From positions 128,501-192,500 of the forward strand of contig JABMCL010000732.1 of assembly GCA_018857735.1 (NCBI GenBank): a DNA stretch of 64,000 nt. The letters are read 5' to 3'. A program made the translations under genes and the position numbers. Within the stretch, counting starts at the first letter, position 1; the number at the start of each line of letters is the position of its first letter. The notes under the pieces were generated by a model. It had not been told where the DNA came from. It saw only the letters and a program-made list of their open reading frames with translations, and searched no databases. Source of the DNA: Alviniconcha marisindica. Lineage: Eukaryota; Mollusca; Gastropoda; Provannidae. Below are positions 8,926 through 59,658 of this stretch, one piece after another.

Positions 8926-9068
8926 ATGCCGCCGAGCAGGCCACTAAAAGACCTCAACTCGAAGGGGGCTCGGGTGCTTGCCAACAGGTACCAGGTGGTC
9001 AAAAAACTGGGAAGTGGCAACTTTGGTGTCGTTTTCCTCTGCACGGATCGCAAAAGTAACAATGAACA
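8926..9068 (+). CDS. NEK11: NEK11 exon 1
   Basis: Encodes residues 1-47 and two bases of codon 48, including the ATP-binding glycine loop GSGNFG at 29-34. The donor is CA|GTGAGT. A GT microsatellite starts about 45 bp downstream. Confidence 0.92.
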
Positions 9069-58100: not shown

Positions 58101-59658
58101 ACACACACACACACACACACACACACACACACACACACACACACCACATCATGTAATCATCACATGATAACAAGTATATAATGTGTGTACTCCCAAATCA
58201 AAGAGAGCTGGGATAAAATCAACAATCATCTTTTTCTGTTCTATTAAAGAATCAAGAAAGAATGATTTGATCATCCACAGCAAAACTTGGATAGACTTTA
58301 TTTAACTTTGCACACAAAGCTGCAAACACAATGTACAAAGGCAGGCACCATGTACACACACACACACGCACACACACATGTGCGTGCACACACACGCACA
58401 CACACACACACTTACTGATACTCTTTCCTGGGTAAAGTTTAACATTCTCATAGCCTGGGATGTGCAGGTCCGTTTCTCCGGCTCGTATGTTTTCTATCTC
58501 TTTAAAGATCAGTTTCTGCTTCTCTGCTTTGGTGAAAAAATTTGACAAGTCCTCTGCAATCAGAAACACAGACAATCATACAGACACACATACACACACG
58601 CACGCACGCATGCACACACACCACTTCTAAACAGATTAATGATAAAACCATTAAATAACAATACAGCAAAGACTTTATATACCTAGGTATCACTCTACTG
58701 GAAAGGTACCCAAACTGATTCCGGGATCTCTACAAGACACTCCTGCCAGAAAGCACTGTCAAGAATGGCCAGCAGGCGAAACAGTCAGAGATCAAGCTTC
58801 TCATTCAAGAAAACAGGACACTGCAAGACCTCACAGTGGACACTGATGGCTCAGTCACCAAGGACCAGTCATGGTGAGGCTTCACTGTCAAGCAAGGTGT
58901 GACTACCATCCATAAAGATAGTAAAGCCTATACGGTCTCAACCTCTGGCTCGGCAATGGAGGCGGAAGCAGTCACCCATGCCCTCTGCTGACCTGCCTCC
59001 AGAGGTCACAGTCAGACCACACATGCCATCATCCTCACAGATTCAATGAGCTTGCTACAAAAAGTAGAAAGTGGGATGGGAAGCCCAGACTGTTACGTTT
59101 TTATGGTTGACATCCACCTTCGAAAACTCCTGTCGGTGTACTGCCCTGGACATGCCAGAGTGAAGGGAAATGACCAAGCAGATAGACTGGCGGGCAAAGC
59201 AGCCCTCACAAGTGCCTTGTTTCTCAGAATATCTGAAGTGTTGAGAAGCTTGAGACACTACATGCAGGCACAAAGCCCAGGACATCGCACTATTGACTGC
59301 TTGGAGAAGAGAAGTGTGGAAAGAGGAAGAGCTAGACAATCTTCCTTGAAAGGACGAGAGAGGGCCACCATCAATCAGACGAACACTGGAACCGTTTCAA
59401 AGGCAACGTCGGGGAAACTTCTGAGAGACAGGGTGGAGCGCATATGGGCTTTACCGAGCACACAGATAGCATCTTGAACTGAACTGAACTGAACTAACCA
59501 GGTCGTGGTGAGAGTCACTCACCAGAACCAATGAAGCTTTCAATGTCCTGGACGGTGACTTCGCGGTGAAAGCCATCAGTGTGTGGCTTCTTCATCTCCT
59601 GCATTTCGGCTGCCAGCAGAAGGCGCTCCGTGCCAGCGCCCACCAGCAACATGGTCTC
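46079..59658 (-). CDS. ANO10: ANO10 (TMEM16K) anoctamin, 5' end beyond window
   Basis: Minus-strand exons in transcript order: 59658-59523, 58553-58416, 57571-57449, 55362-54790, 53902-53847, 53476-53402, 52017-51811, 51357-51166, 49753-49619, 47850-47734, 46159-46079. All junctions are GT-AG and in phase, giving 610 residues; human ANO10 has 660, so about 70-80 N-terminal residues lie outside. Diagnostic matches to ANO10 include [65 protein letters not shown] and [19 protein letters not shown]. Several hydrophobic segments form the TMEM16 membrane domain. ANO10 is an intracellular anoctamin linked to lipid scrambling and calcium signalling; loss causes ataxia in people. Function here is inferred. 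Confidence 0.93.
46166..47170 (-). repeat. Minisatellite carrying the ANO10 last-exon acceptor
   Basis: On the minus strand about 24 units of 25-39 bp contain TGTTTGTGTTTGTTGCAG, equivalent to the acceptor region of the last exon, joined to ATGATGCACCAGTTGAGATG. Left and right halves use slightly different units (with or without the CACCAGTTGAG part). Confidence 0.88.
47171..47733. other. ANO10 intron 10 remainder
   Basis: A 41-bp unit (GGCATGGGTAACATTACAGT) is present twice with a partial third copy at 47280-47370. Otherwise unassigned. Confidence 0.5.
47734..47850 (-). CDS. ANO10: ANO10 visible exon 10
   Basis: Encodes 39 residues from [20 protein letters not shown], the last transmembrane helix and the conserved IPD motif. 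Acceptor GTTTCAG, donor GAG|GTGAGC, phase 0. Confidence 0.94.
47960..49015 (+). repeat. Minisatellite with antisense donor-like motifs
   Basis: About 30 units of 32-38 bp; most contain CCAGGTAAGTCTGGACAG or CCAGGTAAGCCTGGACAG. On the + strand, antisense to ANO10, these are consensus 5' splice sites (CAG|GTAAGT). Confidence 0.95.
49130..49620 (-). repeat. 32-bp minisatellite carrying the ANO10 exon 9 donor
   Basis: About 15 minus-strand units of TTATCTTTGTGGCTGTAGAG|GTATGAGTGTCC. The exon's last 18 bases and its donor are copied in each unit. Near-identical copies suggest recent expansion. Confidence 0.95.
49619..49753 (-). CDS. ANO10: ANO10 visible exon 9
   Basis: Encodes 45 residues ([20 protein letters not shown] to VAVE), matching the ANO10 helix with TNCALIGM and the VAVEH junction. 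Acceptor TCTTCAG, donor GAG|GTATGA, the first of a ladder. Confidence 0.94.
49800..51172 (-). repeat. 22-bp minisatellite carrying the ANO10 exon 8 donor
   Basis: On the minus strand the exon end TGGCAG|GTGGGTGTGGG recurs with a 22-bp period (with AAACA) for about 30 units from 51172 to 50460. Longer variant units with GGAAGTGTACCTCCAGTGTG run to about 50160 and then diverged forms. No stop codons occur in several frames, producing a very long open extension of exon 8. Confidence 0.95.
51166..51357 (-). CDS. ANO10: ANO10 visible exon 8
   Basis: Encodes 64 residues: [18 protein letters not shown], then [13 protein letters not shown] and [13 protein letters not shown], the best-conserved ANO10 segment. 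Acceptor CTTTAG, donor GGCAG|GTGGGT. Both edges are duplicated in flanking arrays. Confidence 0.95.
51307..51725 (-). repeat. 83-bp array copying the ANO10 exon 8 acceptor and exon start
   Basis: Four upstream copies of an 83-bp unit: acceptor TTTGTCTTCAG, then about 64 exon bases ([20 protein letters not shown] or variants DHYLVLF, NDYLKLF), ending TCTTCAG without a donor. Two subtypes alternate, so the array grew as dimers. 83 is not a multiple of three. Confidence 0.95.
51811..52017 (-). CDS. ANO10: ANO10 visible exon 7
   Basis: Encodes 69 residues: [20 protein letters not shown], then a basic and acidic cytosolic loop ending in [11 protein letters not shown]. Acceptor TGTTTCAG, donor GAG|GTTTGT. 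Confidence 0.94.
52046..52400. repeat. Cluster of SINE tail and dispersed AT-rich elements
   Basis: Minus-strand SINE tail at 52046-52110, then two tandem copies (about 84 bp) of the dispersed element with TTATAAAGCGCAAAATCTTG and GAGACTATTCTAAGCAC, then a CA/CG microsatellite to 52396. Confidence 0.75.
52730..52820. repeat. Inverted repeat with 37-bp arms
   Basis: Arms 52730-52766 and 52784-52820 are complementary with about four mismatches (GAACAGCTCCAG...ACACATAA), with a 17-bp loop. A further direct copy of the left arm lies at about 52688-52715. Confidence 0.9.
52821..53235. repeat. Degenerate tandem repeat
   Basis: Diverged 35-45 bp modules with TTTCACTGTAAAGTGTTCAC. Old array, no exon similarity seen. 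Confidence 0.7.
53402..53476 (-). CDS. ANO10: ANO10 visible exon 6
   Basis: Encodes 25 residues [20 protein letters not shown]..., a transmembrane helix. Acceptor CTTTCAG, donor AGC|GTAAGT, phase 0. Confidence 0.94.
53847..53902 (-). CDS. ANO10: ANO10 visible exon 5
   Basis: Encodes [19 protein letters not shown] (first codon split), matching the ENHRLESAYQNHLILK region of ANO10. Acceptor ATGACAG, donor CTG|GTGAGT. Confidence 0.94.
54290..54775. repeat. CA/CT microsatellites interleaved with a 30-bp unit
   Basis: Blocks of (CA)n and (CT)n alternate with about five copies of GTCAGCAGGATATTTCACTA plus ATTAGCTAA. The last copy abuts the intron side of the ANO10 exon 4 donor, beginning about 20 bp from it. 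Confidence 0.9.
54790..55362 (-). CDS. ANO10: ANO10 visible exon 4 (large membrane exon)
   Basis: 573 bp, the largest exon. It encodes [20 protein letters not shown], a helix pair ([19 protein letters not shown]), a loop with [11 protein letters not shown] and [12 protein letters not shown], then two more helices ([29 protein letters not shown]). Acceptor TTGCAG, donor TTTG|GTGAGT. Confidence 0.96.
55510..55682. repeat. Purine-rich GA/GACA tract
   Basis: About 170 bp almost purely of AGAGA, GACAGA and GGGGGAGA. A polypurine strand of this kind may form triplex DNA. Confidence 0.9.
55960..56462. repeat. Higher-order minisatellite in ANO10 intron 3
   Basis: 29-bp units (CTCATCTACTTGTCACCCAC and ACTACAGGA) alternate with a longer unit holding GGGTTCATCCAATCCAGCCA, giving a repeating block. 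Confidence 0.95.
56545..57480 (-). repeat. 107-bp array copying the ANO10 exon 3 end and donor
   Basis: About eight minus-strand units hold GATGAGTGGTATCAGCCCAA and CTTGCAGCCGATAC|GTAAGT, then intron sequence. Copies next to the exon are nearly perfect. The farthest (56545-56700) have lost the donor or parts of the exon, so the array ages away from the exon. Confidence 0.95.
57449..57571 (-). CDS. ANO10: ANO10 visible exon 3
   Basis: Encodes [20 protein letters not shown] to [12 protein letters not shown], matching ANO10 before the first helix. Acceptor CTCCAG, donor ATAC|GTAAGT. Its 5' part is copied upstream and its 3' part downstream. Confidence 0.93.
57525..57893 (-). repeat. 91-bp array copying the ANO10 exon 3 acceptor and start
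   Basis: Three full upstream units plus a partial: TTTCTTTGCTCCAG|TCAAGAAG, then about 50 exon bases ([14 protein letters not shown]), then a shift to intron sequence. Copies are almost identical. Confidence 0.95.
57894..58415. other. ANO10 intron 2 with CA tracts
   Basis: Unique AT-rich sequence with CA microsatellites at 58077-58144 and 58350-58411. The second lies right at the exon 2 donor. Confidence 0.6.
58416..58553 (-). CDS. ANO10: ANO10 visible exon 2
   Basis: Encodes [20 protein letters not shown] to [15 protein letters not shown], matching the ANO10 N-terminal cytosolic domain. Acceptor ATTGCAG, donor ATCA|GTAAGT. Confidence 0.95.
58690..59490 (+). mobile_element. LINE fragment with RNase H domain, inactivated
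   Basis: In broken + frames the three acidic motifs of retroelement RNase H appear: DTDGS (about 58839-58853), MEAEAV (about 58957-58974) and TDSMSLL (about 59038-59058), followed by a [18 protein letters not shown] segment (about 59149-59202). In-frame stops lie in TGGTGAGG (about 58874) and CTGCTGACC (about 58985). The element ends in (TGAAC)n, a short tandem tail typical of non-LTR elements. It lies antisense in an ANO10 intron. Confidence 0.8.
59523..59658 (-). CDS. ANO10: ANO10 visible exon 1 (internal exon)
   Basis: Encodes [20 protein letters not shown] to QDIESFIGS, matching the LVGASKIRMLLGAE region of ANO10. Acceptor GTGTCCAG, donor TCTG|GTGAGT. The preceding N-terminal exon is not found in 59659-64000. 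Confidence 0.88.

Follow-up and report, generated by a model that had tools for sequence, protein, structure and literature searches.

Minisatellites spanning exon-intron edges in two neighbouring genes of the snail Alviniconcha marisindica, probably tolerated by-products of random duplication

Two adjacent, convergently oriented genes, NEK11 (+ strand) and ANO10 (- strand), in a 64,000-nt stretch of Alviniconcha marisindica DNA (the window, analysed at its full length) carry minisatellites whose repeat unit spans a splice junction together with exon sequence. A uniform test and alignments found such units at 10 of the 47 internal splice edges of the two genes. We consider it likely, with a probability of about 0.75, that the arrays are mirage-type minisatellites, tolerated by-products of random duplication that need no special mechanism; the basis of this reading is two genes only.

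Results

The NEK11 model comprises coding exons 1-14, from start to stop, and their introns (8926..26820, +), as supported by exon models, relatives and a Pfam kinase domain. The ANO10 model holds the 11 coding exons present in the window (46079..59658, -), supported by exon models, the match to the human anoctamin-10 structure 5oc9 (E 1.6e-178) and a Pfam anoctamin domain, so that the domains of both products agree with the gene assignments. ANO10 exons are numbered from the first one present, the upstream exons lying beyond the modelled part. The splice edges (24 acceptors and 23 donors) bear AG or GT at 47 of 47 positions, and the models have coherent phases and a single open frame per gene. 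The closest NEK11 proteins are those of Littorina saxatilis (75% identity) and Babylonia areolata (73%). In NEK11 exon 3, at 12063-12112, about 15 residues replace an 11-residue stretch that is conserved in all six aligned relatives as ALQYMHSRRVL or AVQYMHSRRVL. The frame stays open through these odd residues, which reflect either a poor consensus or a real change.

Edges with copies were counted by a uniform test, in which a profile of 30 intron and 20 exon bases was compared with 2.5 kb on each side at E<0.001 and a copy was required to span the junction. About one edge in five (10/47) was positive: NEK11 acceptors 3, 5 and 7 and donor 10, and ANO10 acceptors 3, 8 and 11 and donors 3, 8 and 9. 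A stricter ungapped scan detected 9 of the 47 edges and missed ANO10 acceptor 11 and NEK11 donor 11. Tailored profile alignment of the eleven edges named in the initial annotation (6 of the 24 acceptors and 5 of the 23 donors) gave copies at all eleven, 135 non-native copies overall, gathered at a permissive E of 10 by likeness to the native edge, a procedure biased towards copies in which the core is retained. The copied edges are far above chance similarity. The claim of eleven edges stands for the ten that pass the uniform test; NEK11 donor 11 is weak and fails it.

Array intervals and exon lengths per unit were read off by hand from the exon models and scans. Copies of the NEK11 exon 3 acceptor (11237..11973, +) form units of about 101 bp, with 7 non-native copies and about 45 exon bases per unit; 3′ of the same exon, at 12305-12424, we noted by eye only an apparent decayed partial exon copy (...LMDWIWQL...). 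At the exon 5 acceptor (15934..16048, +) a single extra copy with 14 exon bases lies 76 bp upstream, which does not amount to an array. The exon 7 acceptor array (17893..18407, +) has a 30-bp unit, 16 non-native copies and about 16 exon bases per unit, and the exon 10 donor array (21739..22012, +) a 33-bp unit with 8 non-native copies and 18 exon bases. The weak exon 11 donor array (22523..22655, +) consists of 4 non-native copies of a 28-bp unit with 6-8 exon bases; its copies are about 72% identical, keep GT in 2 of 4 cases and are negative in both the ungapped and the uniform test.

In ANO10, exons 3 and 8 are copied on both sides. The exon 3 acceptor array (57572..57884, -) has a 91-bp unit with 3 non-native copies and about 62 exon bases, while the donor array of the same exon (56560..57448, -) has a 107-bp unit with 9 non-native copies and about 48 exon bases; both splice letters were aligned in 8 of these 9 copies, and GT is kept in 3 of the 8. 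The exon 8 acceptor array (51358..51738, -) is built of an 83-bp unit in 5 non-native copies, each with 64 exon bases. On the donor side of exon 8 (50113..51165, -) a 22-bp unit with about 8 exon bases is present in 42 non-native copies, and distally in this intron 8 array the unit turns over from 22 bp to 41 bp. The exon 9 donor array (49136..49618, -) has a 32-bp unit, 15 non-native copies and 20 exon bases. The exon 11 acceptor array (46160..47178, -) has a unit of about 39 bp in 25 non-native copies; its units contain the acceptor plus roughly 7-18 exon bases, the exon part being diverged, and are absent from the ungapped scan.

Unit lengths across the edge arrays range from 22 to 107 bp; the lower end is as initially annotated, the upper end had been put at 114 bp. 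The view that the arrays are independent events rather than one family is upheld. Of the 27636 intron bases, 5871 (21%) belong to edge-derived stretches. Beside each array the intact exon stays, as judged from the phase-coherent open frames, the exception being the 15 odd residues of NEK11 exon 3. These residues, unlike those of six relatives, are a sign of poor sequence nearby, and according to the available part of PMC3087553 one amphioxus mirage was misassembled in a draft. It is nevertheless very unlikely that the arrays are false tandem expansions which long reads introduced into the assembly, as the copies bear their own substitutions, differ mutually by 2-28% and have differing units across arrays, and both reading frames are intact elsewhere. 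Copy numbers in the assembly may be wrong.

We then turn to the state of the copies. Both splice letters were aligned in 130 of the 135 non-native copies and 116 of these 130 retain AG/GT; together with the 10/47 edges this confirms the anatomy originally described, a unit consisting of the splice site and a piece of the exon. The exon pieces correspond to residues that other molluscs conserve, which sets the direction from exon to array: the copies derive from conserved exons. Departures from the copy consensus were seen in 14 of 259 splice-letter cells vs. 295 of 4341 cells elsewhere (p 0.44), and there was thus no signal of selection on the copied splice letters across the 11 edges. Changes among copies fell evenly on the three codon positions (31, 28 and 33, p 0.83), and the exon pieces in the copies are therefore without coding constraint. 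An apparent third-position excess by cell count (133/798 vs. 85/781 and 68/770) was rejected, since shared changes had been counted repeatedly and the excess vanishes when they are counted as events. Fixed differences between the native edge and the copy consensus numbered 8, 4 and 11 by codon position (p 0.21). The exon share of the unit varies from 0.18 to 0.77 and is spread evenly (KS vs. uniform, p 0.54), hence the offset from the splice site is not fixed, and in 8 of the 11 cases the unit length is not divisible by three. These results fit undirected breakpoints and neutral copies. Divergence is higher in the exon parts of copies (201/2367) than in the intron parts (94/1974, p 1e-6), a comparison made on copies found by likeness to the native edge and with indels unmodelled; this difference is unpredicted by simple neutrality. 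As a gauge of homogenisation within arrays, identity among copies was compared with identity between copies and the native edge; it was the higher of the two in 5 of 10 arrays, with means of 0.888 vs. 0.881 (p 0.70).

Splice-site strength was scored with a simple matrix from the 47 native sites at 9 of the 11 edges, NEK11 exons 5 and 7 being left out. Results showed that 71 of 107 scored copies reach or exceed their own native site; measured against the weakest native acceptor or donor, as the case may be, all 107 do so. No copy attains the native score at NEK11 donor 11 (0/4) and ANO10 acceptor 11 (0/22). In most arrays, sequence strength fails to mark the native site, and as so many copies match or beat it, site strength alone is insufficient to explain correct splicing of NEK11 and ANO10 past the copies, which we assume to take place. 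By construction the native site is nearest the exon body, so the native sites form the innermost acceptor-donor pair and define the shortest exon. We infer that they stay in use as this innermost pair, via recognition across the exon; the long introns of both models (n = 23, range 328-2357 bases, median 1339) fit such recognition. The high scores, along with the canonical letters in 116/130 copies, could also be taken to mean that the copy ladders function as decoy or alternative splice sites or regulate splicing efficiency, and according to the accessible part of the review PMC5188458, activity of human CBS is influenced by the repeat number at the boundary of exon 13. We hold a function of this kind to be highly improbable, given that splice letters are kept no better than other positions, 8/11 units shift the frame and the copies show no codon-position bias.

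The window as a whole is rich in tandem repeats. TRF returned 181 rows in 77 clusters; once microsatellite rows and rows with short units had been removed, there remained 51 arrays, which cover 24289 of 64000 bases. In a self-similarity scan, tandem copies were present at 2282 of 5169 sampled noncoding positions of the gene spans, at 29 of 137 positions within 20 bases of an edge and at 41 of 654 exon-interior positions; intronic positions close to edges were less repetitive than distant ones. A size bias of the edge-array units was considered and dropped, as their mean of 58 bp vs. 48 bp for other gene-span arrays gave no signal (p 0.64).

Several further repeats were observed in the window. 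Three copies of a dispersed element, about 320 bp long and perhaps a short interspersed element, are 79-88% identical (12986-13284, 23216-23544 and, in reverse, 38983-39299). One 28-bp minisatellite with a common flank is found twice, 7 kb apart (20869-21071 and 27857-28505), which suggests that it spread along with a larger element. Two intergenic arrays are very homogeneous, one with 20.5 copies of a 44-bp unit at 96% (34409-35305), the other with 14.4 copies of a 59-bp unit at 98% (35745-36593). In an upstream intron of ANO10, an array of 'TTCTTTCCTCACTTAG'-like units, which resemble acceptor sites, extends over 62105-64000; at about 63340-63640 it includes an unusual stretch rich in homopolymers. 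The proposal that this noisy stretch is a bad copy of 61.6-62.1 kb is unsupported, with only a 5.3-bit match.

The initial annotation had offered two readings: tandem duplication is favoured at exon edges, or random duplications crossing an edge persist as the intact exon remains. When the arrays were shifted within the window (2000 shifts), they covered on average 17.2 edges (sd 3.9) vs. 10 observed, with P(>=observed) 0.98 and P(<=observed) 0.03; these counts include NEK11 donor 3, which falls under the array cluster 11238-12223, and leave out acceptor 5 of NEK11 and acceptor 11 of ANO10. The first reading thus fails array shifting, the check that the annotation itself had put forward, as applied to this window, and the second is supported. 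The uniform test applied to control positions was positive at 128 of 300 random intronic and 7 of 200 exon-interior positions vs. 10 of 47 edges, random intronic positions being about twice as often repetitive as edges (Fisher p 0.006). Edges thus fall between intron and exon, which would be expected if removal scales with the damage that duplications do to exons.

A founder-unit null, in which each array was collapsed to one unit and placed at random (4001 draws), refusing units that lie inside an exon or swallow one, gave another picture. Nine of 26 gene-span arrays cross an edge vs. 2.87 expected with small units (P(>=9) 0.0015) or 3.72 with the best TRF units (P(>=9) 0.0055), a 2.4- to 3.1-fold excess; with ANO10 exon 11 included there are 10 crossing arrays, and P falls below 1 in 4001 draws or to 0.002, respectively. 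Neither the shift test nor the founder-unit test included the 12-bp repeat in coding sequence at 22940-22998. The verdict on edge preference therefore flips with the choice of null model: shifted arrays and random positions speak against it, and the founder-unit excess would fit a modest preference. That excess is what would be expected if duplication started preferentially at exon edges, for example because transcription stalls or pauses, R-loops form or replication comes into conflict at the places of splicing. We rate such favoured initiation as rather unlikely, because the arrays cover fewer edges in place than when shifted, introns are less repetitive near edges than far from them and the breakpoints have no fixed offset. 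Moreover, the founder-unit null makes the strong assumptions of a single founding event per array and of today's unit length, which are violated where the unit changes along an array, as it does in ANO10 intron 8 (from 22 to 41 bp), and the edge set was picked post hoc, having been noticed before the founder-unit statistics.

Discussion

According to the initial annotation no named system of this kind existed, yet tandem repeats spanning exon-intron boundaries have already been named 'mirages' in amphioxus, where the available part of PMC3087553 describes them in Adh3 and the globins BflGb6 and BflGb9; the available part of PMC3902484 adds PGBD5 and troponin C. In the portions of both papers at hand, mirages are located at both 5′ and 3′ exon ends, have units of 10-160 bp, carry AG/GT in many, not all, copies and leave the intact exon in place (PMC3087553, PMC3902484). 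As far as these portions go, the snail arrays are alike in being boundary-spanning minisatellites at both exon ends, with AG/GT in 116/130 copies and an intact exon. They differ in occurring in a mollusc rather than a cephalochordate, in affecting 10-11 of 47 edges within a pair of adjacent genes and in being described from one sequence. No report of mollusc mirages was found among the literature matches listed, which comprise open-licence papers only and are weak evidence of absence. The structure type is known; new here are its occurrence in a mollusc and its high density.

In the human CBS VNTR, each unit reportedly repeats the donor. This 31-bp VNTR lies where exon 13 meets intron 13 and is, in what is available of PMC5188458, likewise a minisatellite at an exon-intron boundary; unlike the snail arrays, it is a single locus whose repeat number is reported to affect enzyme activity.

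Intron creation by tandem duplication is similar in that the duplicated stretch includes splice-like sequence. Such creation has reportedly been described by Rogers, by Gao and Lynch and in a paper on potato RdRp. The snail arrays, in contrast, lengthen existing introns, and nothing suggests new ones. Tandem repeats at human exon-intron boundaries are discussed as possible novel introns in the accessible part of PMC2812944.

If the arrays are tolerated by-products of random duplication, short tandem duplications would arise nearly everywhere in the region, and some founders would span an exon-intron edge. A duplication of this kind would leave the intact exon with its own splice site, the extra copy falling in the intron, and would survive for this reason, while selection would remove duplications inside exons. 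The arrays would grow by repeated slippage or unequal exchange, and the native site would be kept in use as the innermost pair around the exon. It is a more speculative and rather doubtful extension that founding at edges is about two- to threefold favoured, that boundary minisatellites occur independently of phylum in minisatellite-rich, exon-definition genomes and that edge copies make up a sizeable share of introns (here 21%).

Our analysis extends the amphioxus-type structure to a mollusc, where it is dense enough for statistics. If splicing stays correct beside dozens of copies as good as the site itself, the arrays would be natural tests of how the spliceosome chooses a site by position.
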